A stretch of DNA of 64,000 bases from Schaalia odontolytica (lineage in GTDB: Bacteria; Actinomycetota; Actinomycetes; Actinomycetales; Actinomycetaceae). Numbering within the stretch: the stretch's first letter is position 1; each line of letters opens with the position of its first letter. This document shows positions 22,957-45,147 of the stretch, piece by piece. The translations under genes and the position numbers were made by a program. Where the stretch lies: NCBI RefSeq assembly GCF_002847525.1, contig NZ_PKKM01000002.1, positions 180,992 through 244,991 on the forward strand. The letters run 5' to 3'. The notes beneath the pieces are model-generated. The model saw nothing but the letters and a program-made list of their open reading frames with translations, did no database searches and was not told the DNA's origin.

Positions 22957-25900
22957 CTATTCGGCGCGACAGGCGGTGACGGGGTGCTTGGCCAGGAGCT
23001 CTGCCGCCGTCGTGGCCTCGGTCAGGATACCCGTAACTTGGGGGTTATCCCGCGAGAAGCGGAACTCGGTGATGGTCGCGGGGCGTCCGGTCTTGACGCT
23101 GCACACGATGGTGACATCGGATTGGAACTTCTGGGCGTTCACGGCGTGCAGCGTCATCGAGCCGCACTCCTGCCCGTTTCCGCAGGCCATCTTCCCTTCG
23201 AAGGTCGCGTCAATGCTGGTGGGTTGTTCGGCGGTCCTGAACGTGGTCCTCACCTCGCGATGCTGCCCCTTAGTACCGGTGACCTGGACGACTAGCGTGA
23301 GGTCACGGCCGGGCGGGAGGTCACCGGCCCACCAATCGGTGAGCGGACCAACCACGGTCTGCTTGGTCGTTCCTTCCAATTCCGCGATCCAGATCTCGGT
23401 CTTGGCGATCGTCACGCCGCTAGGAGTATTCAATTTTGCACTCACCGACGTGCCACTGACGCTGGTCTGAACCACGAAGGTCGGGATCTGATCCCCGGCG
23501 TCACCGCCGCCGCCGTCGCGCTGGCCGTTGCCGACGACGCCGGAGGCGGCCGTGGTGGGACCCCACACGAAGGAGCCATCATCCTTCTTACCGCGCTGGC
23601 AGAAGTAGTAGGTCATCGTGGCTCCGGCCGTAAGAGTACCGATATTGAAGTCCTCCATACCCACTTCGTTCGCACTCGCGTTACACCCATTGGGGTCATG
23701 CGTGTAGAACAGGGTCAGGTCGGCGGCCTTGAAGCCGTTGCCTTCCTTCACCCTCGCGCCATAGACGCTCAGCTTGCCCCACTCATTGTTGATGGGCGTG
23801 CGCACGTTGGGCGCATCGGGAGCAACCGGGATCGTCTTGGGAGGAGCGAGGTCCTCGTGGACGAGCGCCGGAATGACGTAGCCCGGGGAGGTCGCCGTGT
23901 CGCCGTTCTTGTTGCTGACGGTCACGTAGGCGGTGAGGGCCGTGCCGTAGGGGACCGTCATCTGGGTACTGGTCTGGCCCCCCGGGACCTTCTTCGTCAT
24001 GCCGTTGACCGACACGACCGTCTCGCCCCATTCGGCGCTGCCGGAACTACCCAGGGACCAGGTGATGGTGAGCAGAGCTCCGTTGCCATCGCGCTGCTGG
24101 ATCGTGTTGCCGTTCGTGATAGTCGGCTGATCGGGGCCGACGCGCGGAGCCGTCGGGATCGCCTGAGCGCCGGACGATGCCGGGGAGTCACCCCTGGCGT
24201 TGCGCGCGACGACCGTCACCGTGTAGTTCTCGCCGTTGCGCAGGCCCGAGATGGTGCACGACGTGTCACCACCGGTCGTGCTGCAGCTGGCGGCCGGGCC
24301 GTTAGCGGTCGACGCGGTGACCGTGTAGCCGGTGATCGGCGAACCGTTCTCGGCGGGCGCGGTCCACGACACGTCGATCGTGGTGTTTCCGGCCGTCACC
24401 GTGGGCTTAGCAGGCTGACTCGGCGCCCCGGAGATGCTCACCGAGCTGGATGCGGAATGCGCGGACTCACCGATGGCGTTCACAGCGGTCACGGTGTAGG
24501 TGTAGGAGCGTCCCACGGTCAGTCCACTCACGACACACACGGTGGACGAACAGTCGGCGACCTTCGTGCCGGTGGCGTCGTAGAGGCGGTAACCGGTGAT
24601 CTGAGAGCCGTTCGAGGCCGGCGCGCTGAACGTCACCCGCGCCGCGTTGGTCCCCACGGCCTCGGCCTGGACGTTCGTCGGCGCATCCGGCTTGCCCGTC
24701 ACGGTCACCGTGATCGTGCCCTGCACGACGCGCGAAGGATCGCCGAGCTTGTCGTTGACCTGGTAGCCCACGGAGATCGTGCCCGCAGAGCGCGGGGTCA
24801 CCATGACCGACGTCCCAGAGGATGCGATGTCCGCGTCACCGAGGGAGACTGCGGCTCCGACAAGAGAGATCGGCGTGTCCGGGAAGGGGTTGGTGGCGCG
24901 CGAGGCAACGTCGACGATGACGGTCTCCCCGACCTTCGCATTCACGGAGTAGGGGGGCACCTGGATGCGTGGCTTCGTCGTCGTCACGATCTCGACGGGG
25001 ATCGAGGCGTTAACGGTGTTGCCCTGCTCGTCGGTGACACTCACGGCGATGGAACCGGCGGATCCAGCGGTCGCCTCCTCGGGGGCGGAAACCGTCAGGA
25101 CGGTGCCGTCGAGGCTTGCGCTCACGGAGCTGGGAGCGGATCCCATCGCGTAGGTGAAGGTCGAGGCATCAGTACCCTCGGGGTCACGCACGGCGAGCGC
25201 GAGGTTCTGGGTGACGGCACTGCCGCCGGCCTCGACGCGGATCGCGGTCGGGGCGAAGGTGGGCGGCTGGTTCGTCGTGGCCTTGATGCGCACGGGCAGC
25301 GACAGCGAGGCACTCAGCGTGCCCGCGTCGTCGGCGTCGCCGTCCGCGACCTGAATGAGGAACGCGGAGTTGCCGCCGAACGTGGCGGTCGCAGTCAGGG
25401 TCAGCTGCGTCGACGAGTCGGCCACGACGGAGTCCAGGCCGGTCTGGATGACCGGGGACGTTCCATCGACGAGGCGGGGGCTGCGGCCCGCTCGGGTCAC
25501 GACGTAGTCCGACAGGTTAATCGTGCGCGAGGTGCCCGCGTCCATCTCGATGGGCAGGCCTGCGGCGCTGAGGAAGGGCGCGGTGGTGTCGCGTCCGGGC
25601 ACGTTCACGACGGCAGAGTTGGTCTGACCGTCGCGGTCGGTGATCGTGTACACGACGAGGCGCAGGGTGTCGGTGACCGGGATCAGCAGGTCGGATCCAT
25701 CCACGGAGACGCCCGATTCTGCGGTCGTCACGGACAGCTCGTCGATACTGCCGTCGGGGTCCTCGTCGTTCTCCAGGACCTTGACGCGCACGGCGGAGCC
25801 GTCGGTGGGCAGGTCTTCGTAGGCGACGTAGTCGTCGCGTGCGATCGGAGCCTTCAGGGGCGCGTCATCCTGCACGAACACCGTCACGGTGCCACGTGCG

Positions 25901-28900
25901 GAGCCGCCGCGGCCGTCGCTCACCGTGTAGGAAACCAGGTAGGTTCCAGCCTGCGAGGGCGTGCGGATCTGCAGCGTCGAGGAGGAACGGACCTGCGGGT
26001 CGAGCTCGGGAGTGGCCGTCTCGAGGCCGTTTTCCTCCAGGGTGAGGGAGTCACCGTCGGGATCAACGTCGTTGGACAGGACGTTCACGGTCACCATGCG
26101 GTCCGGTCGCGTAAGAACGGTGTCAGGCACGGCCACCGGGTTCTGGTTGAGAGAGGGGGCCGCGGAGATCGCGACTCGCACGCGAGCGGAGGCCCGTCCA
26201 CCCTGGCGGTCGACGACCGTGTAGGTGAAGGAGTCTGTGCCGGAGGCATTCTGGTTCGGCGTGTATTCGATCCAGGTCGCCTTCGCGGTGGCGCTGCCCT
26301 TCTGCGGCGAGGAGTCGAGGCCCGTGAGGTTCACGGAGTCGCCGTCGGGATCAATGCCGTCGAGGGTGACCGGGATGCGCGTCGTCTGGCCTGCGGCAGC
26401 CCATGCGCTGATGTCGCGGGGGCGCGGAGGCTGGTTCTGATCGGAAGCGGCGAGCACCTCGAAGGTGACCGTACTCGACGCGCGGTTGCCCGCGGAGTCG
26501 ATGACCGAGTAGGTGACGTCCATGATGCCGGGGGTCGCCCCGGCCTCGAGGCGCACCTGGTTTCCGGTCACGAAGGGGGTGCCGAGGGCGCCCGTCGGGT
26601 CGTACCCGAGCGTCGGCTCGACCTGCAGGTTCAGGCCGGCGGGGGAACGGTCGTTCGACAGGACCGACACGGTGCCCACGTCGCCGACGCGCACCTTGGC
26701 GCGGTCGGGCTTGAGCACGGGCGGCAGGTCGGAGCGATCGGCAGCGCCGGGAATCACCATGACGTCCGCGGTGGCCTCGCCTTGGCCGTTGGAGACCGTG
26801 TAGGAGAAGGTCGCGGTGCGGTCGAGGCCGGAAGGGGCGGTCACGCGCAGCAGGTGACGATCAATGAGAGCGACCTCGAGGCCGGGAGCGTTCTCAGCGT
26901 TGACCGATGTGATGGACAGCAGGCCGCCCGCGGGGTCGTAGTCGTTACCGAGCGGAGCCACCAGGACGGAGCCGCCCTGAGGCAGCACGGCCGTGTCGTT
27001 CTCGGCGACCGGGGGCAGCGTGGACGCGGCCACGACCTCGACGCGGATGATGCCCAGCGTCGTCGCGATGCCGTCGGAGACGGTGTAGGCGAAGGAGTAG
27101 GAACCCGCCGCGGTCGCGCGGAAGTCAATCGTGCCACGGTCCAGGTCCGGCGAGATCGTCGCGCCCGCCGGGGCACCCGAGACGGCGGCGAGGCTCAGCG
27201 GATCGCCGTTGGGGTCGGTGTCATTCTTGAGGGGATCAAGGGTGACGGTCTCGCCGGGGTGTGCCTGGAAGAGGTCGCCATTCGCCGAAGGAGGCAGGTT
27301 TCCGGCCTCCTGGACGGTCACGATGAGCTCGCCACGCGTCTCCGCGCCCTGGTCGTCCGCAACCGTCAGGACAACGGTCTTCGGGCCGGGCGCACTTCCT
27401 TCATCGGTGAGCGTCAGGGAACCGTCCTCACTGAAGGACGCACCCAGCCCCTCCGGGGCCTCCGCGTTCTTCAGGTAGATCGGGTCGCCGTCGGGGTCGC
27501 GCCAGTCGCTCAGCGCCTGGTACTGGATCTGCGCACCCGCGCCGATCTTGACGGTCGATGCGCGCACCTGAGTCGGTGCCGCATTCTGGCTATAGGGGTG
27601 AATCGTCACCTGCACGCGGGCAGCCGCTGATGCCTGGCCGTCAGAGGCCTCGTAGGAGAAGGACGTCGAGCCGGTCTGGGTGTCCTCGACCCCGGTGATC
27701 TGCAGGGCACGACCGCTGCGCGCCACGGTGATCGACCCCCAGTCGGGAGCGCTGGTCGGGGACGCCGTCAGGACGTCTCCGTCCAGGTCGGAGTCGTTAT
27801 CAAGGACGGGAAGGATCGTCGAACGCCCGGGGCGGATACCGAATTCATCATCCACGGCCTCGGGCGGAGTGTTTTCCTCGCGCTGCTGCGGGTCGGCAAC
27901 CTCGTTCGTGAGTTCGGGGCTGTCCTCTTCTTCCTCGGTTTCCTCGAGCTCGTTCTCGACCTCGTCCCAGTTGTCCATAAGGACCATGTTCGAGTCGGGC
28001 AGCCACACGCTGCCCTGCGCAACATCGTTGAGAACGATGGCCTTGCGATTGGTGCGGAAGACGATCTCGCGCGCGCTCGTGAGGGTGTCGACGACCATCT
28101 GCCTGTTGGCGGAGGGGTCGTCGCACGCGCGCATGTAGGCGCCCGACACGCTCCACGCGCCGTACGCGCAGCCTTCGTGGCGAACCGGGGCGGCGGGGGT
28201 ACCGCTGACGCCACCCTCGGTGGAGGGAGTGATCGTCGGAGCGCCGCCCGCCAGCGGAATCGACACGAGGGCCGAGGGCGTGGCTAGCAGGACGGAGTCC
28301 GCCTTGGGGCCAGCCTGCTGGAGGATGCCGCCTTCCTCGACACCGGCCGCGCTCAGGTTGAGCTGCTTGTTGCCCGGGAGGAAGAGGGTGTTGGATTGCG
28401 AGTCCAGGGCGACAACCTGGTCGCCGACGACGGTCACACTCAGGCGGGCGTCGGCGGGGATCCCCTCGATCTGGCCGGTCGATGTCTGGTCGACCGTTCC
28501 CTGGTGCGTCACGGTGGTCAGCGTGCCCGATGCGGACAGGGAGTAAACGGAACCGTCGAGGCCGGTCACAAAGGCGCTCGCCCCCATGTTCGAGGCGAGG
28601 GCTGCTCCCTCAGAGAGGCTCGCGGGGCTGGGGGCGGTGGCCGAGGTGGTCCACAGCGTGCCGTCGGCAGCATTAAGGACACCGAGGACGTCACCGCCCT
28701 GCATCGCGCTCGAACCAGCGGGCAGGGCCGTTGGAGAGCCGAGGGACACCTGGGTCACGTTGACGGGGGCAACGGTCAGAGAGGTGAGGTCGGAGACGGT
28801 GACGGTCTCTCCCGCCTGGCCGACGTCGAAGTTCGTGGCCTCGGTGCGCAGGGCGCCGTCGAGGATGCGGGCCTCGTAGTCGAGGTGGCCGACCATCTGC

Positions 28901-29070
28901 TTGGACTTGTTGGTCACCCAGATGCCGCCGTCGTTGACGTTGACCTGGGTCACCTCGGCGCCCTTGTAGATGACACCCGCGATGCAGAGCGCAACAACGA
29001 GCAGCACGAGGATGAACGCCGGCAGACGGCGCCTCGCACTGATCCGATTGTGTCGCGTTTTCGCGGACAT
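22957..29070 (-). CDS. Giant membrane-anchored Ig/cadherin-like and FN3 repeat surface protein
   Basis: 2037 residues from ATG 29070 (GAGAGG upstream). A basic 15-residue tail, then one membrane segment (about 16-36), so most of the chain is outside. Residues about 40-400 look like a propeller-type domain, followed by an acidic stretch (EEEEDSPE). Then come about ten or eleven Ig/cadherin-like repeats, many with NDxDxDGD calcium-binding-type loops, two clear fibronectin type III domains (SNGSQITGYRLY and ENGSPITGYTVT cores), a diverged third, and a C-terminal domain with paired cysteines. No LPXTG sorting signal is present. It corresponds to the FN3 partner of the PFNA-like cluster: probably an adhesin or envelope sensor linked to the kinase. 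Confidence 0.88.
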   Translation of the reverse strand: MSAKTRHNRISARRRLPAFILVLLVVALCIAGVIYKGAEVTQVNVNDGGIWVTNKSKQMVGHLDYEARILDGALRTEATNFDVGQAGETVTVSDLTSLTVAPVNVTQVSLGSPTALPAGSSAMQGGDVLGVLNAADGTLWTTSATAPSPASLSEGAALASNMGASAFVTGLDGSVYSLSASGTLTTVTHQGTVDQTSTGQIEGIPADARLSVTVVGDQVVALDSQSNTLFLPGNKQLNLSAAGVEEGGILQQAGPKADSVLLATPSALVSIPLAGGAPTITPSTEGGVSGTPAAPVRHEGCAYGAWSVSGAYMRACDDPSANRQMVVDTLTSAREIVFRTNRKAIVLNDVAQGSVWLPDSNMVLMDNWDEVENELEETEEEEDSPELTNEVADPQQREENTPPEAVDDEFGIRPGRSTILPVLDNDSDLDGDVLTASPTSAPDWGSITVARSGRALQITGVEDTQTGSTSFSYEASDGQASAAARVQVTIHPYSQNAAPTQVRASTVKIGAGAQIQYQALSDWRDPDGDPIYLKNAEAPEGLGASFSEDGSLTLTDEGSAPGPKTVVLTVADDQGAETRGELIVTVQEAGNLPPSANGDLFQAHPGETVTLDPLKNDTDPNGDPLSLAAVSGAPAGATISPDLDRGTIDFRATAAGSYSFAYTVSDGIATTLGIIRVEVVAASTLPPVAENDTAVLPQGGSVLVAPLGNDYDPAGGLLSITSVNAENAPGLEVALIDRHLLRVTAPSGLDRTATFSYTVSNGQGEATADVMVIPGAADRSDLPPVLKPDRAKVRVGDVGTVSVLSNDRSPAGLNLQVEPTLGYDPTGALGTPFVTGNQVRLEAGATPGIMDVTYSVIDSAGNRASSTVTFEVLAASDQNQPPRPRDISAWAAAGQTTRIPVTLDGIDPDGDSVNLTGLDSSPQKGSATAKATWIEYTPNQNASGTDSFTYTVVDRQGGRASARVRVAISAAPSLNQNPVAVPDTVLTRPDRMVTVNVLSNDVDPDGDSLTLEENGLETATPELDPQVRSSSTLQIRTPSQAGTYLVSYTVSDGRGGSARGTVTVFVQDDAPLKAPIARDDYVAYEDLPTDGSAVRVKVLENDEDPDGSIDELSVTTAESGVSVDGSDLLIPVTDTLRLVVYTITDRDGQTNSAVVNVPGRDTTAPFLSAAGLPIEMDAGTSRTINLSDYVVTRAGRSPRLVDGTSPVIQTGLDSVVADSSTQLTLTATATFGGNSAFLIQVADGDADDAGTLSASLSLPVRIKATTNQPPTFAPTAIRVEAGGSAVTQNLALAVRDPEGTDASTFTYAMGSAPSSVSASLDGTVLTVSAPEEATAGSAGSIAVSVTDEQGNTVNASIPVEIVTTTKPRIQVPPYSVNAKVGETVIVDVASRATNPFPDTPISLVGAAVSLGDADIASSGTSVMVTPRSAGTISVGYQVNDKLGDPSRVVQGTITVTVTGKPDAPTNVQAEAVGTNAARVTFSAPASNGSQITGYRLYDATGTKVADCSSTVCVVSGLTVGRSYTYTVTAVNAIGESAHSASSSVSISGAPSQPAKPTVTAGNTTIDVSWTAPAENGSPITGYTVTASTANGPAASCSTTGGDTSCTISGLRNGENYTVTVVARNARGDSPASSGAQAIPTAPRVGPDQPTITNGNTIQQRDGNGALLTITWSLGSSGSAEWGETVVSVNGMTKKVPGGQTSTQMTVPYGTALTAYVTVSNKNGDTATSPGYVIPALVHEDLAPPKTIPVAPDAPNVRTPINNEWGKLSVYGARVKEGNGFKAADLTLFYTHDPNGCNASANEVGMEDFNIGTLTAGATMTYYFCQRGKKDDGSFVWGPTTAASGVVGNGQRDGGGGDAGDQIPTFVVQTSVSGTSVSAKLNTPSGVTIAKTEIWIAELEGTTKQTVVGPLTDWWAGDLPPGRDLTLVVQVTGTKGQHREVRTTFRTAEQPTSIDATFEGKMACGNGQECGSMTLHAVNAQKFQSDVTIVCSVKTGRPATITEFRFSRDNPQVTGILTEATTAAELLAKHPVTACRAE

Positions 29071-29146
29071 ATGGCCTCTCTCGATCGGTGAGCAGTACCC
29101 CAGAAATAGTGTGACACGACTACACCGCATACTAATAGTTAACGAG

Positions 29147-36197: not shown

Positions 36198-37490
<1,293 letters not shown>

Positions 37491-38231: not shown

Positions 38232-39473
38232 ATGCCTTTATCTGTCGAATACGCGGACCTGTCGCTGGCACAGCAGGTGCTGGAGCGTCAGGGAACACAC
38301 GTCCAGAATATGCATTCATTCCTTGACGAATGGGGCCATATTGTCACCGGAGGCGTTGCGCCGGTAGCTGTCTACAAAACTGGTTACGGGCTTCTCCTCA
38401 TGGCTTTCAATGGCCTCAACGAGATTGCAGTACAAGCCGGGTTGGGCGTCCTAAAACTCCTAGAAAACGCTCATACCGGTACGGCAAACCACATGGGCCG
38501 AACAATCGATGCCTATGTCAGCGCCGATGAACAGATTCACGCTGCTCTATCCGCTGCGACACAGGCCCTCGGCGGTTCTGCGCTTCCTTTTAATGACCCA
38601 CGCTCGTCTCTACCTACCCTCGGCGCTGCGGAGCAACGCGCTTCACAATGGTATGGAGGCGCAGATCCGAACGTATTCGCGCAAATGGGGCAGGATATTG
38701 ACGCGTTCCGCAATTACGTTACTGGTCTCTCGGACCGTGTCGTGCAACGCGGCGAGAAGGCACTCTCGGCAAACCGTTCGATCTCCGAGGCTCACGATGC
38801 AAGTTCGTACCTCGTCACACCAGAGGCCCCGGAATCAGAGATGGAGAACCTTCGCTGGAAAGCGGGGCCTGTCTTGGGTGGTGTCGATTGGCTGATTGAG
38901 AAGCTCACCGGTGTCTCCGTCCTGAACGACATCATTTTCAAGTACACCGTCGGCGACTGGCGCGTCATTCATCGAGCGAGGACTGCCTGGTCCGAGATCG
39001 GCGACGCCCTCGTCGCAGTCGGCCAGAACGACTCCGAAATTCTCCCTGCTCTGTCAGAGTGGACAGGGAGAGGCTCCGAGGCAGCGAATGTTTTCATCGC
39101 CGCTCTTTCGTGGGGAACGACATCACTGGAAGGCGCAGCGGGCGTGATGTCGACAGTTCTCTTAGGAATCCAGCTACTCGTCAAAAAAGCGGCAAATGAA
39201 ATTGGTGAGCTGCTTGTCGATCTTCAAATCGCTTGCCTGGAGCTACTTGGAGACGCTGGAGTCCCGGTAGCCGGGTGGGTAAAAGCCGCCTTCGATATTG
39301 CCAAGGATGCCTGGAAGTTCATACAGATGGTTATGAGCATCTACGACATCATTAACATGGTCTTCGACATCATGGAATCTCTTGTTGAAGCAAAGGACAA
39401 ACTCATTGAAGTCCGATTTACTATTGCGAACCTAGCCGAGGCCGCTGTTCGAGGAGCTGCAGCACGAGTATGA
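38232..39473 (+). CDS. ESX/WXG100-like large helical protein, putative type VII substrate
   Basis: 413 residues, no signal peptide. The first 100 residues are helical and end in YVSAD (95-99), fitting the YxxxD/E type VII export motif. A second WXG-like turn, EWTGRGSEAANVF (Trp277, Gly279), is followed by amphipathic and hydrophobic helices to the end. The chain therefore looks like two ESX-type modules joined. GAGGGA precedes the ATG. It overlaps the next gene by 4 nt (ATGA) and is followed by a WXG100 gene. Base composition is visibly more AT-rich than neighbours. Function unknown; no toxin domain was recognised. Confidence 0.7.
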   Translation: MPLSVEYADLSLAQQVLERQGTHVQNMHSFLDEWGHIVTGGVAPVAVYKTGYGLLLMAFNGLNEIAVQAGLGVLKLLENAHTGTANHMGRTIDAYVSADEQIHAALSAATQALGGSALPFNDPRSSLPTLGAAEQRASQWYGGADPNVFAQMGQDIDAFRNYVTGLSDRVVQRGEKALSANRSISEAHDASSYLVTPEAPESEMENLRWKAGPVLGGVDWLIEKLTGVSVLNDIIFKYTVGDWRVIHRARTAWSEIGDALVAVGQNDSEILPALSEWTGRGSEAANVFIAALSWGTTSLEGAAGVMSTVLLGIQLLVKKAANEIGELLVDLQIACLELLGDAGVPVAGWVKAAFDIAKDAWKFIQMVMSIYDIINMVFDIMESLVEAKDKLIEVRFTIANLAEAAVRGAAARV

Positions 39474-39883
39474 GCAACGAAGGATACATCGCACGTTTCG
39501 AAGAGTTGTTCCGCTCGTTCGACAACTTGTCTCAAGCGATCAACAAACAACGCGAGCAAAATCAGCGAGACAATGCAGAACACCGGCAGCGGCGCGCTGA
39601 GGCCGCACGCCGCGGAGAACTCGGTGAAGACTGGAAGACAATCCAGGAACGTATTGACAACGGAGAGACGACATTGGAAGACGTCTTCTCCGGTAAGGAT
39701 ACGTCCGAAGCAGCTGAGACCATTCGGAAAACAGCACAACAGAACGTTACGAAGGTTATGCAGCAGGCGCGCCAAGAAGCCGAGGAGAACGATGAGGAGG
39801 ATCCCTTCGCTGCGTTTCAGGAGAAGCTCAGCGCTCTGAGCAAGGCGACTGAAGAACGAGTCCGTCATTTTCAGGGCTTTTAA
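39470..39883 (+). CDS. Small charged coiled-coil protein of the WXG100 island
   Basis: 137 residues, rich in Glu, Gln, Arg and Lys, predicted almost wholly helical; Cys- and Trp-poor (a single Trp), no signal peptide. The start overlaps the upstream stop (ATGA), so it is translationally coupled. Its size, charge and position between two ESX-like genes suggest a chaperone or partner for the 413-residue protein; I recognise no family. Confidence 0.65.
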   Translation: MSNEGYIARFEELFRSFDNLSQAINKQREQNQRDNAEHRQRRAEAARRGELGEDWKTIQERIDNGETTLEDVFSGKDTSEAAETIRKTAQQNVTKVMQQARQEAEENDEEDPFAAFQEKLSALSKATEERVRHFQGF

Positions 39884-39907
39884 AGGGCCATTCCAGAAGG
39901 AGACATA

Positions 39908-40198
39908 ATGCCCGATCTCTACGTCGACGAGGGCGAACTTCAATCCCTCTCCAGCACGCTCAGCCAGCGTGTGGACCACATGGAAGCAATCATCGACACC
40001 ATCCCACAGGCGCAGAATTACCTTGCGAGCACCTGGGAGGGCGAGGCTGCGCGGGCAGCTTTGAACCGCATGAGGATGGATGAAGAGGCTCTCCGCGACA
40101 CTGCGGAAGCGCTCTCTCGCGCCCGGCAGCTCCTCGACGAGGCGATCCAGACCTACGAGGAAACGGAGCAAAACGTTTCCTCGCTGTGGTCCCTCTAA
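39908..40198 (+). CDS. WXG100-family (EsxA/ESAT-6-like) protein
   Basis: 96 residues, the exact family size. Helix, STWEGEA turn with Trp43 and Gly45, helix, then YEETE (Tyr83 to Glu87) matching the YxxxD/E secretion signal. WXG100 proteins are exported by type VII systems as helical hairpin dimers. AGAAGGAG precedes the ATG by 6 nt. No EccC/EssC ATPase or other secretion component is in the window, so the exporter must lie elsewhere if it exists. Confidence 0.85.
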   Translation: MPDLYVDEGELQSLSSTLSQRVDHMEAIIDTIPQAQNYLASTWEGEAARAALNRMRMDEEALRDTAEALSRARQLLDEAIQTYEETEQNVSSLWSL

Positions 40199-40315
40199 GG
40201 CGTCGAGTAAACCTGATCAAAGCGAGCGCCCGGGGGCCGTCACAGCGGAAACCGATCACGGGCACCGTTTGGGGAGGGAGGTGTCGGCTGGCGACGCGCG
40301 CGTCAGCTCATCATC

Positions 40316-40921
40316 ATGGTCAACAAAGCCTCACGAGGAGAGTCCCGCAACCGCTGGGACAAGCGCCAGTACGCGACGTACCTCGTCGCGCTGAACCCGC
40401 AGCAGACAACCGACCGCTGCCTGGATTTCTGGCGCTCAATCGGAGGGTTCGCCGAGCAGGCTGGGGTACGCGAGCAGCTCGCGCGCCTCGGTTTCGTCGG
40501 CACCCAATTCACGATCGGTGGAACCGGTCGGTACTACGCCTTCCGCTCCCTCGACAATATGTTTCCGCTGATGAGCGTCTTCCCGAAGCTCATGCCCAAG
40601 AAATTCAGGGACTCCATCCAGGAGCCGACCAGCATCATGGTCGCCGCTCGCCCACATTCGGTAGGTGGGCAACCGGCATCGGAGCTGTGGTGTTTCCTCG
40701 CGAAAGATGCCCTCAGGGAACCCGTCATCACGGACGCTTTCATGAAGTCTGCTCTAGAAGGCATAAGTGAGTCCTTCACCCAACAGGGCATCTTGTTGGG
40801 CACCCCGCAATTCTTCCGAGGTGGAGATCTCCCCCGTGATCACGTCTTCTCCGACATGGGTCTCCTCGCATTGCGACGGGCCGCCACAGCTTTCGTTCGC
40901 GACGAGTCACACCGCCAGTGA
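40316..40921 (+). CDS. Island paralogue 1, unknown family
   Basis: 201 residues, no signal peptide. First of five tandem relatives. Shared layout: an N-terminal segment with a conserved Trp (DFWRSIGG), GxREQLARLGFVGTQ, a short hydrophobic stretch with prolines (about 82-97), then AARxxxVGGQPASELWCF, and a C-terminal half with QGILLGTPQFFRGGDLPRDHVF and LRRAA. The ATG at 40316 has only a distant AGGGAGG, so the start is less certain. Function unknown; position after the WXG100 gene suggests a role with the ESX-like proteins. Confidence 0.7.
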   Translation: MVNKASRGESRNRWDKRQYATYLVALNPQQTTDRCLDFWRSIGGFAEQAGVREQLARLGFVGTQFTIGGTGRYYAFRSLDNMFPLMSVFPKLMPKKFRDSIQEPTSIMVAARPHSVGGQPASELWCFLAKDALREPVITDAFMKSALEGISESFTQQGILLGTPQFFRGGDLPRDHVFSDMGLLALRRAATAFVRDESHRQ

Positions 40922-41024
40922 ACCACCCGCAAGCCTCCCTCAGCACCACGCAGCCCCGCGACCGTGCACCGCGCGGGGGCACCTTCGCTTCTCTCTCCTC
41001 CGTCTTTTCCCGGAAAGGACAGCG

Positions 41025-41618
41025 ATGAACACGGCACCACCAACCTCCTCGTCGAAGGGGCGCCTCCTCAATCGAAACCGCTACTTCTACGCGCAGCTGG
41101 CCACCGACCCGCACCAGGCGGCGACGAGCTGCGCCGACTACTGGGTGTCCACAGGGGCGCGCAACGGAACGCCAGGGATGAGCGGGCAGCTCGCCAGCCA
41201 CGGCTGGATCGGCACCGAACTCATCACCGGCAGCTACGCACGCCACTGCGCCATGTCCTCGTTCTTCGAGAGCATCCCCCTCATCGGCTTCTTTCCTTCC
41301 CTCGCTCCCAGGTCACTCAAGCACGCACAGCAGGCACCCAAGCGCATCATCATCGCCGCTCGCGCCTGTCAGGTAGCTGGCCGCCCGGCGAGCGAGCTGT
41401 GGTGCTTCGACGGCGACATCACTTCGACGGACCCGATGGTGTCCAATGCCTTCATGGACACCGCCCTGCGCGATCTCGCGATCGCGCTCCACAAGCAGGG
41501 GACGCTGCTGGGCACGCCCAAGCGCTTCTTCGGAGGCGCGCTGCCCAAAGACCACCTGTTCTACTTCCAGAACATCGCCATCATGCGCAGGGACGCGAAG
41601 ATGAACAGGCGCTACTGA
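41025..41618 (+). CDS. Island paralogue 2, unknown family
   Basis: 197 residues from ATG 41025, with AAAGGA 5 nt upstream; the longer in-frame ORF begins inside paralogue 1 and is rejected. Motifs: DYWVSTGA, GMSGQLASHGWIGTELITG, a hydrophobic SFFESIPLIGFFPSLAP stretch, VAGRPASELWCF, and KQGTLLGTPKRFFGGALPKDHLF with a final MRRDAK. It is closest to paralogues 1 and 4. No catalytic motif or export signal is recognised. Confidence 0.7.
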   Translation: MNTAPPTSSSKGRLLNRNRYFYAQLATDPHQAATSCADYWVSTGARNGTPGMSGQLASHGWIGTELITGSYARHCAMSSFFESIPLIGFFPSLAPRSLKHAQQAPKRIIIAARACQVAGRPASELWCFDGDITSTDPMVSNAFMDTALRDLAIALHKQGTLLGTPKRFFGGALPKDHLFYFQNIAIMRRDAKMNRRY

Positions 41619-41638
41619 CGCCACACGGGAGATAAACG

Positions 41639-42238
41639 ATGAACTCTCTTGTCTCAGCGATGCAGCGAGACTACGACGCATCTTTCAGCCCAATCACCGT
41701 TTTTCGCCTGGCAATACCCCCCGACGACGCCGTGTCTCGCTGCGTCGGCCTCTGGAAGATGAAGGGCATCCGCTCCGAGACAGTCGGCATGCGCGAACAA
41801 TTCAAGCAGCGGGGATGGGCGGGAACAGAGCTGATCATCGGACACAGCGGGCGCGCACTCCTCACTGATTTTTTGTTCAACACGCGAGGGCTCACCCTCC
41901 TGTTCTCACAGGCAATCTCTCTCCTGCCCAACCGTGTCAAGAGAGCCGCCATCACCAAGATTTACGTGGACATCATCGCACGCACGATCGAAACCGAATC
42001 GGGGCCGATAACCGAACTGTGGTGCCTCGCTGATTGGGCGACGCGGATCAACCTCAGCGGCTTCGAGAACAGTTACATCGAATCGTCGATGCGCTCGCTC
42101 GAAGAGTCATTCAACACGCAGGGCATCCTGTCCGCCCCCGTCCGTCACCTCGATCGCAGGGACATCGAGCCGGACAGTCCCCTCTCGCTCCCCACACTCG
42201 TGTCGATGCGTCAGGCAGCAAAGAAGCGCAACCGGTAG
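41639..42238 (+). CDS. Island paralogue 3, unknown family (diverged)
   Basis: 199 residues, 20 nt after paralogue 2; GGGAG lies 8 nt before the ATG. Family core is retained as GMREQFKQRGWAGTELIIGHSG and ITELWCLADWA, and the end as MRQAAKK. The GGDLPKDHLF motif is reduced to RRDIEPDSPL, making this the most diverged short member. Hydrophobic stretch at about 75-100. Function unknown. Confidence 0.7.
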   Translation: MNSLVSAMQRDYDASFSPITVFRLAIPPDDAVSRCVGLWKMKGIRSETVGMREQFKQRGWAGTELIIGHSGRALLTDFLFNTRGLTLLFSQAISLLPNRVKRAAITKIYVDIIARTIETESGPITELWCLADWATRINLSGFENSYIESSMRSLEESFNTQGILSAPVRHLDRRDIEPDSPLSLPTLVSMRQAAKKRNR

Positions 42239-42401
42239 CATCCTCTCTTCGGCCGGTCACCGCGCGGGTACCCATGCCTCGTCAATCCCGATAATTCCCT
42301 GCGGATAGTATCCTGGTGAGCAGCGGCGCTCAGCAGCAACGCACTGCGGCAGAGTGCTGAGGCTTGTTGTTGACACTTGTCTTTCCTCGAGGAGGATGTT
42401 C

Positions 42402-43016
42402 ATGGGGGCGGGTCATTCAGGTTTCTCTCTCCGTCGGGCCGTCAACCGACGCAGGTACTTCTACGCGCTCGTCGCGGCCGACCCACATCAGACGGTCACG
42501 CATGCTGTCGACTACTGGGTGTCCAAAGGAGCCTGGGGCGAGACGAACGGCATGCGCGAGCAGCTCGCCCAGCACGGTTGGGTCGGCGCGGAAGTCATTA
42601 TCGGCAGCGACCTGCGCAGCCTCGCATTCAGGCCTCTCCTCGATGCCATTCCCGGCGTTAATCTCGTTCCGTCTACAGCGCCCACGTCGATCAAACGCAC
42701 TAGTCAGGAGAGGACCGAGATCCTCGTCGCAGCACGATCCTGCTCGGTCGGAGGACGCCCCGCCTCCGAACTCTGGGTCTGCGAAGCCCGCGTGGTACAT
42801 GACTCCAGATGGGCGACAGACGCATTCATGGACATGTCGCTCGGCGAGCTGGCGGGCTCACTAGATCGCCAAGGACTGCTCCTGGAAGCTCCTCGATTCT
42901 TCCACGGCGGAGACCTGCCGAAAGATCACCTCTTCACCATGGACGGCGTCCTGTCGATGCGCAGGGCCGCCAAAAAGGAGTACGGCCGCAAACCCCGGCG
43001 TTTCTCAGTAAACTGA
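42402..43016 (+). CDS. Island paralogue 4, unknown family
   Basis: 204 residues. The ATG at 42402 is placed 6 nt after AGGAGG; earlier in-frame ATGs overlap that site. Motifs: DYWVSKGAWGETNGMREQLAQ followed by GWVGAEVIIGS, LLDAIPGVNLVPSTAP, AARSCSVGGRPASELW, GGDLPKDHLF and MRRAAKKE. The 163-bp gap upstream, with TTGACA at 42371, may carry its own promoter. Function unknown. Confidence 0.7.
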   Translation: MGAGHSGFSLRRAVNRRRYFYALVAADPHQTVTHAVDYWVSKGAWGETNGMREQLAQHGWVGAEVIIGSDLRSLAFRPLLDAIPGVNLVPSTAPTSIKRTSQERTEILVAARSCSVGGRPASELWVCEARVVHDSRWATDAFMDMSLGELAGSLDRQGLLLEAPRFFHGGDLPKDHLFTMDGVLSMRRAAKKEYGRKPRRFSVN

Positions 43017-43115
43017 GACTCGCCAACTCCCACCGAAAAACTACCTCTTCTCGATCCACAACACCCGCACAATACGGCGGACCGCAGACGTGAATGAACG
43101 AGAGTAGAACCGCAC

Positions 43116-43982
43116 ATGAAGATGACAACGACTCCCCCGGCCTCGTGGACCGGGAACCTCTTTCGACGCCCGCCTCTTGGCGTCTACACGGTCACCGGCT
43201 CCCCCGAGGACGCGGTCAGGCGGTGTCTCGACCTGTGGGTGACGCTTGGCGTACGCGAGCAAACACACGGCATGCCCGAGCAGTTTGCACGCCGCGGCTG
43301 GGTCGGCACAGAGATCACGGTCGACGCCTCGAGCACAGCAACGAAGAAGCCGTCACTTGACCTCACTGACGTGATGGACGCCGTGAGCGACGCTGGGAAG
43401 CATCTCCACATGGCATACAAGAAAACCGCACCCGAGGGTCTTCGTGCGGTCACCGACACGGTTGGCGAGGTCGTAGGCGCAGTCGGCGAGGTTGCCGGCT
43501 TCGCCGGTAGCGCCGCGCGAGAAGCCGCCGGCGGGGTCGTGGACACAGTCGTCGAGGCAACCGGAACAGTCGGCGAGGTTGCCTACTTCGCCGGTAGCGC
43601 CGCATACGAGGGTGCCACCAGCGCCGCGAACAAGGTCGGTGGATTCGTGTCGGGCCTCGCATCCAAAACCTGGCGCAAGGAACACCTGCCAAAACCCGGC
43701 AAATTCCGCATCGTGGTCGCAGCCCGCGCACTCCCCGATCAGGAGAAGGAGGCTGCGCAGCTGTGGTGTTTCCTCAGCGATGATTCACCAAAGCGATCCT
43801 TGGGTTCTGACGACCAGATCGACGAGGCCTTCCAATGGCTCGAACGCAAGCTCACCGAACAGGACGTCCTGCTTGATGTTCCGCATTACGTCAACCAGAA
43901 GGACCTTCCCGCTGACAGCGCCCTCACGGCGAACTGTCTCGCCGCCATGCGACAGGCGGCGAGCACAGAGCCGCTTTCGTGA
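43116..43982 (+). CDS. Island paralogue 5 with inserted Gly/Ala-rich amphipathic domain
   Basis: 288 residues. The family N-terminal core (GMPEQFARRGWVGTEITV) and C-terminal core (AARALPDQEKEAAQLWCF, LDVPHYVNQKDLPADS, MRQAA) flank an insertion of about 90 residues. The insert has two similar units, each with VGEVAxFAGSAAxE, rich in Gly, Ala and Val, resembling membrane-associating helices. The start at 43116 has GTAGAACCGCAC upstream but no strong site; a nearby MTTTP start two codons later is equivalent. Last gene of the island, closed by a bidirectional terminator. Function unknown. Confidence 0.7.
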   Translation: MKMTTTPPASWTGNLFRRPPLGVYTVTGSPEDAVRRCLDLWVTLGVREQTHGMPEQFARRGWVGTEITVDASSTATKKPSLDLTDVMDAVSDAGKHLHMAYKKTAPEGLRAVTDTVGEVVGAVGEVAGFAGSAAREAAGGVVDTVVEATGTVGEVAYFAGSAAYEGATSAANKVGGFVSGLASKTWRKEHLPKPGKFRIVVAARALPDQEKEAAQLWCFLSDDSPKRSLGSDDQIDEAFQWLERKLTEQDVLLDVPHYVNQKDLPADSALTANCLAAMRQAASTEPLS

Positions 43983-44060: not shown

Positions 44061-45038
44061 TCAGCCCTGCGCCCGCAGGGACGCCACCTCGTACAGGGCG
44101 ATGCCCGTCGCAACGGCCGCGTTAAGAGACTCGACGGTCGACGTGATCGGGATCGACACGATCTGATCGCAGGTCTCGCGCACGAGGCGGGACAGGCCCG
44201 CACCCTCGGCACCAGTCACGACCACGAGGGGGCCGTCCGCCAGCGACAGGCCGCGCAGGGGCGCGTCACCGCCGCCGTCCAGGCCGACCACGAAGTAACC
44301 GGCCTGCTTAGCCTCCTCGAGGGCGCGCACAAGGTTCGTCGCACGAGCCACCGGCACGCGGGCGGCCGCACCGGCCGACACCTTCCACGCGGTCGTGTTG
44401 ACGCCCGCGCTACGACGCTCGGGGATAATGACGCCGTCCGCGCCGAACGCACCCGCACTACGCAGGACCGCGCCCAGGTTATGGGGATCCGTCACCTGAT
44501 CGAGGGCAACGAGAAGCGGGTGGCCCAGCTGCTGCAGAGACCCCGCGATCAGGTCCGAAGCGTCGGCGTACTCGTAGCCGCGCACCTCGATGGCGACGCC
44601 CTGGTGGACGGCGCCGTCGGTCGCGACATCCAGGTCGCGGCGGGTGACCTCGTAAACGGGGGCACCCATGGCCGAGGCGAGGCGCACGACCTCCTCCACG
44701 CGGTCGTCCTTCACGTTGTCGAGGACGAAGACGCGCTCAATCGGGACCGAGGCGCGGGCGGCCTCGGCGACCGGGTTGCGGCCGGCAATCAGCTCGTGAC
44801 CGGGCTTGACGCGGATCGACGACTTGGCGCGGGCGCGAGCGATCGCGGCCTCCTGGGCCTCGCGGGCCTCGCGCTTGACCTTGCGCTTGTGGGCGGGGTG
44901 GTAGGTGCGGTCCTCGGCCTTGGGGGTCGGGCCCTTGCCTTCGAGGCGGCGGCGCGAGTGGCCGCCGGTGCCGACCTGCGCGCCCTTCTTGGTGCCCTTC
45001 TTACGGATGGCGCCGGGGCGCCCGCTGTGTGAGGCCAT
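44061..45038 (-). CDS. rlmB: 23S rRNA 2'-O-methyltransferase, SpoU/TrmH family
   Basis: 325 residues. A basic, low-complexity N terminus (1-75) likely binds rRNA, followed by a substrate-binding domain and the SPOUT domain with motifs DPHNLGAVLRSA, GAEGAGLS and STVESLNAAVATGIAL. It transfers methyl from SAM to a 23S ribose (G2251 in E. coli RlmB). Start 45038 (MASHSGRPG) has GAGGAG 6 nt upstream. In actinobacteria it usually follows cysS; here DUF1697 and a repeat gap intervene. Confidence 0.92.
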   Translation of the reverse strand: MASHSGRPGAIRKKGTKKGAQVGTGGHSRRRLEGKGPTPKAEDRTYHPAHKRKVKREAREAQEAAIARARAKSSIRVKPGHELIAGRNPVAEAARASVPIERVFVLDNVKDDRVEEVVRLASAMGAPVYEVTRRDLDVATDGAVHQGVAIEVRGYEYADASDLIAGSLQQLGHPLLVALDQVTDPHNLGAVLRSAGAFGADGVIIPERRSAGVNTTAWKVSAGAAARVPVARATNLVRALEEAKQAGYFVVGLDGGGDAPLRGLSLADGPLVVVTGAEGAGLSRLVRETCDQIVSIPITSTVESLNAAVATGIALYEVASLRAQG

Positions 45039-45147
45039 GGTGTCTCCTCGTTTTCTCGTGAACTGACACAAGCGTACGGGTTTTAGGTCGCATCGGGGCC
45101 ACAGGGGCGCGCGCGGGGGCCAAAATCACGATTGGGTAGGGTGAGCC

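Follow-up and report, generated by a model that had tools for sequence, protein, structure and literature searches.

Genes of the purA-rlmB locus

We analyzed a 64,000-nucleotide stretch of Schaalia odontolytica DNA (hereafter the window) that carries eight plus-strand genes between two minus-strand genes, one that we take to be purA (36198..37478, the left border) and one that presumably encodes an rlmB-like rRNA methyltransferase (44061..45071, the right border); these names, like those of the neighbors malK, DUF4032, fpg, and rnc used below, should be read as our assumptions. In order, the eight genes encode a 413-residue protein (ESX413, 38232..39473), a charged 137-residue protein that looks coiled-coil-like by eye only (CC137, 39470..39883), a WXG100 protein (39908..40198), and five same-strand paralogs, D1 (40316..40921), D2 (41025..41618), D3 (41639..42238), D4 (42402..43016), and D5 (43116..43982), whose possible role as an immunity array against a type VII effector is the subject of this work. 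The open reading frames (ORFs) bear out this layout, which the original prediction had described. The ESX413 and CC137 frames overlap by 4 bp, a D1 leader (40199..40315) separates the WXG100 gene from D1, the paralog that adjoins it, and the ATG starts of D2 (at 41025) and D4 were fitted to the paralog alignment, the listed ORFs beginning further upstream.

We compared the locus with that of Actinomyces sp. strain HPA0247 (genome G021), in which the D1 ortholog is 85% identical. The ratio of nonsynonymous to synonymous substitution rates (dN/dS) was 0.12 for ESX413, 0.09 for CC137, 0.19 for WXG100, 0.26 for D1, and 0.17 for D4, and it ranged from 0.03 to 0.26 over the compared genes including the flanks; D2 gave 0.29 against genome G014, and D3 gave 0.53 against G019. 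These ratios against relatives indicate that the ORFs are real genes and not chance frames. Between the window and HPA0247, dS was 0.11 for purA, 0.19 for rlmB, 0.29 for D1, 0.52 for D4, and 0.53 for WXG100, but 1.87 for ESX413 and 2.05 for CC137, and the upstream part of the locus therefore holds distant alleles between near-identical flanks. The G+C contents of ESX413 and CC137 are 0.55 and 0.54, those of the flanks are 0.68 and 0.71, and that of the window is 0.66. A plasmid or phage origin was considered and rejected: a megablast search of 72,556 plasmid records recovered no match to the island, and a tblastn search of 50,697 phage records recovered none to D4. Rfam models gave no match at the gathering threshold between 37400 and 44200.

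Among the eight proteins, only the WXG100 protein reached the cut-off of a curated family in Pfam or NCBIfam. It belongs to PF06013 (E value of 5.8e-10; 39.7 bits against a cut-off of 27.3), with W43-E-G45 and a Y83-xxx-E87 tail readable in the sequence, and its score for TIGR03930 (43.9 bits) lies below the cut-off of 44.85. The structural model of ESX413 has an EspB-like helical fold, that of a single-chain PE-PPE protein, which makes it a putative type VII substrate. Across 41 sequences the protein carries a bipartite signal in which Y95 and D99 are near-invariant (Y95xxxD99) and W277 and G279 are invariant (W277-T-G279), followed by a conserved turn (P345..G348-W349); the last ∼120 residues are the most variable. 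At the sequence level ESX413 matched no EspB or PE/PPE profile, and no EspB was found among its PDB sequence matches, the best of which was an unrelated coiled-coil spike chain (4.6e-5). Its Pfam matches to WXG100_2 (0.0037), T7SS_signal (0.018), EspC (0.029), and WXG100 (0.083) appeared in only 1 to 2 of 20 members, level with unrelated families. The ESX413 relative in genome G008 (locus L038, 7341-8762) and proteins P0233 to P0241 have an Ala/Lys/Gly-rich insertion of variable length (at most about 65 to 90 residues) between helices 1 and 2.

The paralogs D1 to D5 can be aligned over their length with pairwise identities of 26 to 47% and 17 invariant columns, and the shared motifs that had been reported for them are correct. 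Conservation is concentrated in three blocks (GMREQLAxxGWVGTE, PASELWCF, and DLPxDHxF...MRRAAK) separated by variable stretches. No Pfam or NCBIfam family scored above its cut-off for D1 to D5, 20 relatives, or 7 distant relatives, so the paralogs did not turn out to belong to a known housekeeping family. EsaG, which we take to be the family labeled DUF600, was likewise not matched at these cut-offs; no convincing family for D emerged from Pfam, NCBIfam, PADLOC, or PDB sequences, and literature searches found no description of the family in print. An insertion of ∼90 residues rich in Gly, Ala, and Val lies within the variable middle segment of D5, and matches of this insertion to a PHROGs tape-measure profile (8.9e-5) and to PADLOC ZorA (0.0044) were judged to be low-complexity similarity. 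An AlphaFold2 model of D4 (predicted local distance difference test score, 76.6; predicted template modeling score, 0.72) has the order β-α-α-β-(low-confidence residues 72 to 101)-β-β-α-β-α, and the low-confidence stretch coincides with the variable middle segment. The Kyte-Doolittle hydrophobicity of this segment reaches 2.2 in some relatives, is 1.0 to 1.25 in D2 to D4, and is ∼0.5 in lone D proteins of the type found in genome G011; a membrane-anchored D protein was considered and dropped because high values are not general among relatives. Proteins P0121, P0122, and P0155 have two D domains or parts in tandem within one frame and may be natural fusions or frame artifacts.

The four-gene module in related genomes

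Genome-wide tests were run on relatives of the window strain, with a family survey of 213 genomes from 36 genera that used profiles for ESX413 (A7), CC137 (A4), and D (A1 for the genus, A9 for a wider search). ESX413 was matched in 12 of these genomes (weakly and partially in G338 and G454), CC137 in 10, and D (A9) in 30 genomes belonging to 4 of the 36 genera; in a sample at the order level, D-type matches occurred in 3 of 297 genomes, all of the window genus. CC137 was confined to genomes with an ESX413 match, and all 10 genomes that encode it also have a D gene in the module.

The order ESX413-CC137-WXG100-D is found in genus g1 in the window, HPA0247, G008, and G009, and again in G033 at a different site, where ESX413 is broken and the D match was obtained by hhalign (97.8%). 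G034 has the module at yet another site; the gene after its WXG100 gene was not significant against A2 alone (3.1%) and is linked to D solely through G200 sequences (A2-A10, 86%; A9-A10, 97.8%). In genus g20 the order is WXG-ESX-CC-D-D in G339, ESX-CC-WXG-D in G355 and G356, and ESX-CC-D-WXG-D in G200. The four-gene set is present in two genera, at several sites unrelated to one another, and the pairing of D with WXG100 genes on which the original prediction depended is found in other genomes. The broken ESX413 genes of G033 and G356 and that of G200, which contains a stop, each have an open D gene beside them. The modeled EspB-like fold, the WXG100 gene, and the recurrence of the module with D at unrelated sites support well the link to type VII secretion that had been proposed. 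No exporter was recognized in the window, as had been stated: the five longest frames of a heuristic ORF list gave no EccC/EssC match in NCBIfam, and for the other frames the assessment was a visual one of the first 75 residues.

Within the genus (35 genomes), profile A1 found D in 15 genomes, in all 15 at the purA-rlmB site, with extra copies beyond rlmB in G008 and G009, and A9 added G028, G032, G033, and G035. ESX413 is present in 4 of the 15 D arrays at this site and elsewhere in the genus only in G033 and G034. A WXG100 gene lies beside 5 of the 15 arrays (G008, G009, G014, G021, and, at the opposite end, G019) and, because the other 10 have none adjacent, is not obligatory in a D array. 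In G014, another genome of g1 with the module, a shortened D frame directly follows the WXG100 gene and precedes an intact D2-like gene. The gene in G019 (L043, 8461-8748) is a lone WXG100 gene at the rlmB end of the array, encodes a protein 45% identical to that of the window, and has no ESX413 or CC137 beside it. At a further site in G353 (G353:C1:1178720-1179438), a genome with no ESX413 or CC137 match, a WXG100 gene is followed by an internally shortened D gene.

Recombination, loss, and persistence of D genes

The number of D paralogs, whose variation among strains had been suggested as a check, ranged from 0 to 5 matches per genus genome, with five genes in the window and three in HPA0247; tandem paralogs in varying number beside a candidate effector gene are what would be expected of an immunity array. 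Decay is also evident, as 36-residue remnants in G001, G007, and G027 and as frames that are split or contain stops in G006, G014, and G019.

Mosaicism was assessed in 233 D sequences (27 from the window and genome loci and 206 of 228 search proteins, those of 170 to 226 residues; D5 and the D proteins of G008 and G009 were set aside), with N-terminal, middle, and C-terminal segments clustered at 80%. Because the two protein searches each listed 120 matches, out of 814 and 277, respectively, the mosaic figures describe a sample. Among the matches listed, 17 N-terminal, 18 middle, and 19 C-terminal clusters, some of the N-terminal ones possibly splits at the 80% threshold or short N termini (P0195), occurred in 48 combinations, 24 of them recurring, and the three segment pairs gave 5, 2, and 6 sets in which all four combinations were present. 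The 27 window and genome sequences alone yielded 18 combinations. An example from genome assemblies is gene G007c, which is 90 to 94% identical to G001d up to nucleotide 375 but only 48% (375 to 480) and 68% (480 to 600) thereafter, whereas its identity to the gene from G019 is 60 to 74% up to nucleotide 375, 98% from 375 to 480, and 73% from 480 to 600. The first breakpoint coincides with the PASELWC block; mosaicism that breaks at conserved blocks is again typical of EsaG-like immunity arrays.

The putative effector also diversifies. We compared the N- and C-terminal parts of 79 ESX413 sequences (71 of the 79 proteins obtained by searching, plus 8 taken from the window and genome loci; P0261, P0279, P0280, P0292, P0294, and three others of at most 395 residues were left out). 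The most discordant pair was 76% identical in the N-terminal part and 39% in the C-terminal part, and another pair was 100% identical in the C-terminal and 81% in the N-terminal part, a pattern in which the sequences point to faster evolution of the C-terminal third plus recombination; no swap for an unrelated domain was seen in these 79 sequences. More extreme discordances (N-terminal identity of 95 to 100% with C-terminal identity of 33 to 36%) had suggested swapping of C-terminal cassettes, an idea that was rejected when P0261 and P0294 proved to be deletion-scar proteins. Four such proteins (P0261, P0280, P0292, and P0294) match ESX413 as far as the conserved turn, beyond which they continue into the translated D1 leader at window nucleotide ∼40257; from that point onward, the leader supplies the ends of truncated ESX413 proteins encoded in metagenomes. 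P0292 represents 106 contigs and the other three represent one each; alleles therefore circulate that lack the end of ESX413, CC137, WXG100, and the sequence up to the D1 leader.

D genes also persist outside the module. Of the 30 D-positive genomes, 21 have no CC137, and lone D genes occupy three sites at which relatives have the module: purA-rlmB and, in g20, the malK/DUF4032-like site (where G339 has the module and G352, G353, G355, G356, G360, and G367 have a single D) and the fpg/rnc site (where G355 and G356 have the module and G339 has a single D). At one of these g20 sites, G353, G356, and G367 carry another WXG100 gene at a distance of 12 to 13 kb. The dN/dS of orphan D genes is 0.07 to 0.11 (three pairs among G011, G017, G020, and G023) and 0.14 to 0.39 in other arrays (five pairs), compared with 0.01 to 0.14 for purA or rlmB of such pairs. 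Where tested, orphan D genes are under purifying selection, and retention under constraint without an effector is a further property expected of immunity arrays. Between G011 and G017 (L040 and L042 loci), the dS of D is 0.27, far under the 0.90 to 1.02 of rlmB and purA, which suggests that D itself was transferred from one species to the other independently of the module.

The search for EccC used a Bacillota EssC model, and no match exceeded its cut-off. G408 (100% complete) has an open D gene, no WXG100 match, no EccC-type match, and a single FtsK-type match of 869 residues; G432 (94% complete) has an open D gene, no EccC-type match, and just two FtsK-type matches; in G426, also without an EccC-type match, D has two stops. 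The G408 D homolog (L093, 7296-7838) has a lower G+C content at third codon positions (0.53), precedes a GIY-YIG-like frame (by eye), and may be acquired.

Proposed immunity role and its alternatives

We consider it somewhat better than an even bet (probability of about 0.55) that the D proteins confer immunity to an EspB-like effector with no recognized toxin domain. The ESX413-CC137-WXG100-D set would then be a four-gene type VII effector unit of the Actinomycetaceae with D as its immunity genes. ESX413 would be exported by an EccC-type system elsewhere on the chromosome, with the WXG100 protein and CC137 as partners, and because it has no recognized enzymatic domain it would most likely target the envelope or membrane of neighboring kin by way of its variable C-terminal third. 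Binding of ESX413 by a D protein, in either the recipient or the producing cell, would protect that cell; since the C-terminal third of ESX413 varies, several D variants would be gathered per cell, and tandem copies would recombine at the conserved blocks to produce mosaics and shifts in copy number. D would be retained after loss of the effector genes because neighbors still produce the effector.

What the genomes show, namely the order and conservation of the genes, mosaic and orphan D genes, shifts in copy number, and scar proteins, can be set against published type VII systems. The closest parallel is EsaD/EsaG, a nuclease of the Staphylococcus aureus type VIIb system with a tandem immunity array; in EsaG arrays, three blocks of homology are accompanied by mosaicism, varying copy number, and orphans (PMC9484751), and D likewise consists of nonidentical tandem paralogs with conserved blocks between variable segments, mosaics, changing copy number, and orphan arrays free of the toxin. 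It is these signatures, together with decay, likewise described for EsaG arrays, and deletion of the putative effector next to the D genes, that lead us to favor immunity. D differs in being another family, from Actinomycetota, linked to an EspB-like substrate without a recognized nuclease domain, and a deletion scar like that of the D locus is not among the EsaG-array features described in the accessible part of PMC9484751. The locus also resembles TspA/TsaI, in which a membrane-depolarizing toxin without an obvious enzyme is linked to 10 DUF443 genes (PMC7456083), although TsaI-type proteins are predicted five-transmembrane membrane proteins whereas D is modeled as α/β and looks mostly soluble, and tsaI genes show little recombination within them (PMC9484751) whereas D recombines. 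The original prediction, which is partly supported, left open whether the paralogs form a neutralizing or a cargo-binding set; retention of D, open and where tested under constraint, without ESX413 and CC137, open D genes in two genomes with no detectable EccC, and the EsaG-like mosaic arrays favor the former over the latter, with neutralization as a putative role.

Several points weigh against immunity. Pfam searches found no toxin domain in ESX413, and the D4 model has no clear fold relative, so that no known immunity fold backs the assignment; D, whose middle segment varies in hydrophobicity, also appears largely soluble, whereas the immunity protein of TspA is a membrane protein. No codivergence of D1 with ESX413 is seen between the window and HPA0247 (dS of 0.29 versus 1.87), whereas the members of a tight toxin-antidote pair might vary in step. 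The metagenomic mosaics could partly be assembly chimeras, a doubt from which the genome-assembly cases are free, and an intact D1 beyond the deletion scar is presumed from the scar proteins. The absence of EccC from G408 and G432 is valid only at the sensitivity of the Bacillota model. EccC-like frames, all under that model's cut-off and identified by our own reading of the frames, are present in 29 of 35 genus genomes, in 15 of 15 D-positive genomes versus 14 of 20 D-negative ones (P = 0.027; with A9, 19 of 19 versus 10 of 16, P = 0.005), comparisons that ignore relatedness.

This association at the genus level would also suit the main rival, in which D proteins are cytosolic chaperones or targeting factors, EspG- or EspK-like in role, that hold ESX413-type substrates by the conserved turn P345..G348-W349 and bring them to EccC, the paralogs serving several substrates. 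The resemblance of ESX413 to EspB, whose known partner is the chaperone EspK (PMC9811218), speaks for it and against immunity, and mycobacterial EspB/EspK and PE-PPE/EspG pairs share with the locus an EspB-like fused PE-PPE substrate (here a model), YxxxD and WxG motifs, and a regular operon partner gene (PMC9811218). In contrast to EspG and EspK, neither of which appears among its PDB sequence matches, D occurs in arrays and is kept in genomes without an ESX413 match and, in G408 and G432, without a detectable exporter; mosaic, decaying arrays would also be unusual for chaperones. We judge this role unlikely, though worth keeping in view; if it is correct, D would be a new chaperone family for a PE-PPE-fold substrate.

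It is improbable that D proteins are exported effectors or cargo carried by WXG100 or ESX413, with the array as a store of alternatives. Their position next to WXG100, their diversification through recombination, and the dN/dS of the second and third D genes between G008 and G009 (1.16, from few changes, 10.5 synonymous and 37.5 nonsynonymous; and 0.57) would agree with such a role, but no export motif was recognized at D termini (by eye alone), no protecting gene was recognized beside D, and G408 and G432 have open D genes with no detectable exporter. Slimmer still is the chance that D is an older family of unrelated role next to which a mobile ESX413-CC137-WXG100 block landed: D is commoner than the module (30 versus 10 of 213 genomes), and ESX413 and CC137 have a G+C content under, and a dS far above, those of the flanks, but copy numbers of 0 to 5, decay, the lack of a match in 183 of 213 genomes at the sensitivity used, and mosaics are not housekeeping-like, and a block that landed next to D repeatedly, at loci unrelated to one another, would in itself imply that the two are functionally tied.

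If the D proteins do confer immunity, the logic of tandem, recombining immunity arrays known from type VII systems of Bacillota would extend to Actinomycetota, where the protein family is new and an EspB-like substrate is the weapon, EspB-fold proteins would gain a testable role in competition among ordinary mouth bacteria, and the D family could be used to mark such competition in oral metagenomes. More tentatively, and at rather less than even odds, EspB-like PE-PPE-fold proteins, which in mycobacteria are virulence-associated substrates, might be polymorphic antibacterial effectors without an enzymatic domain in oral actinomycetes, with D as the first immunity family against that fold and EsaG-style block recombination in a type VIIa lineage.

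Elsewhere in the window, a minus-strand frame of 2057 residues (22957-29130) contains tandem-95 repeats (NF012211, 161 bits) and adjoins frames that by eye are MoxR-, DUF58-, transglutaminase-, kinase-, and phosphatase-like.

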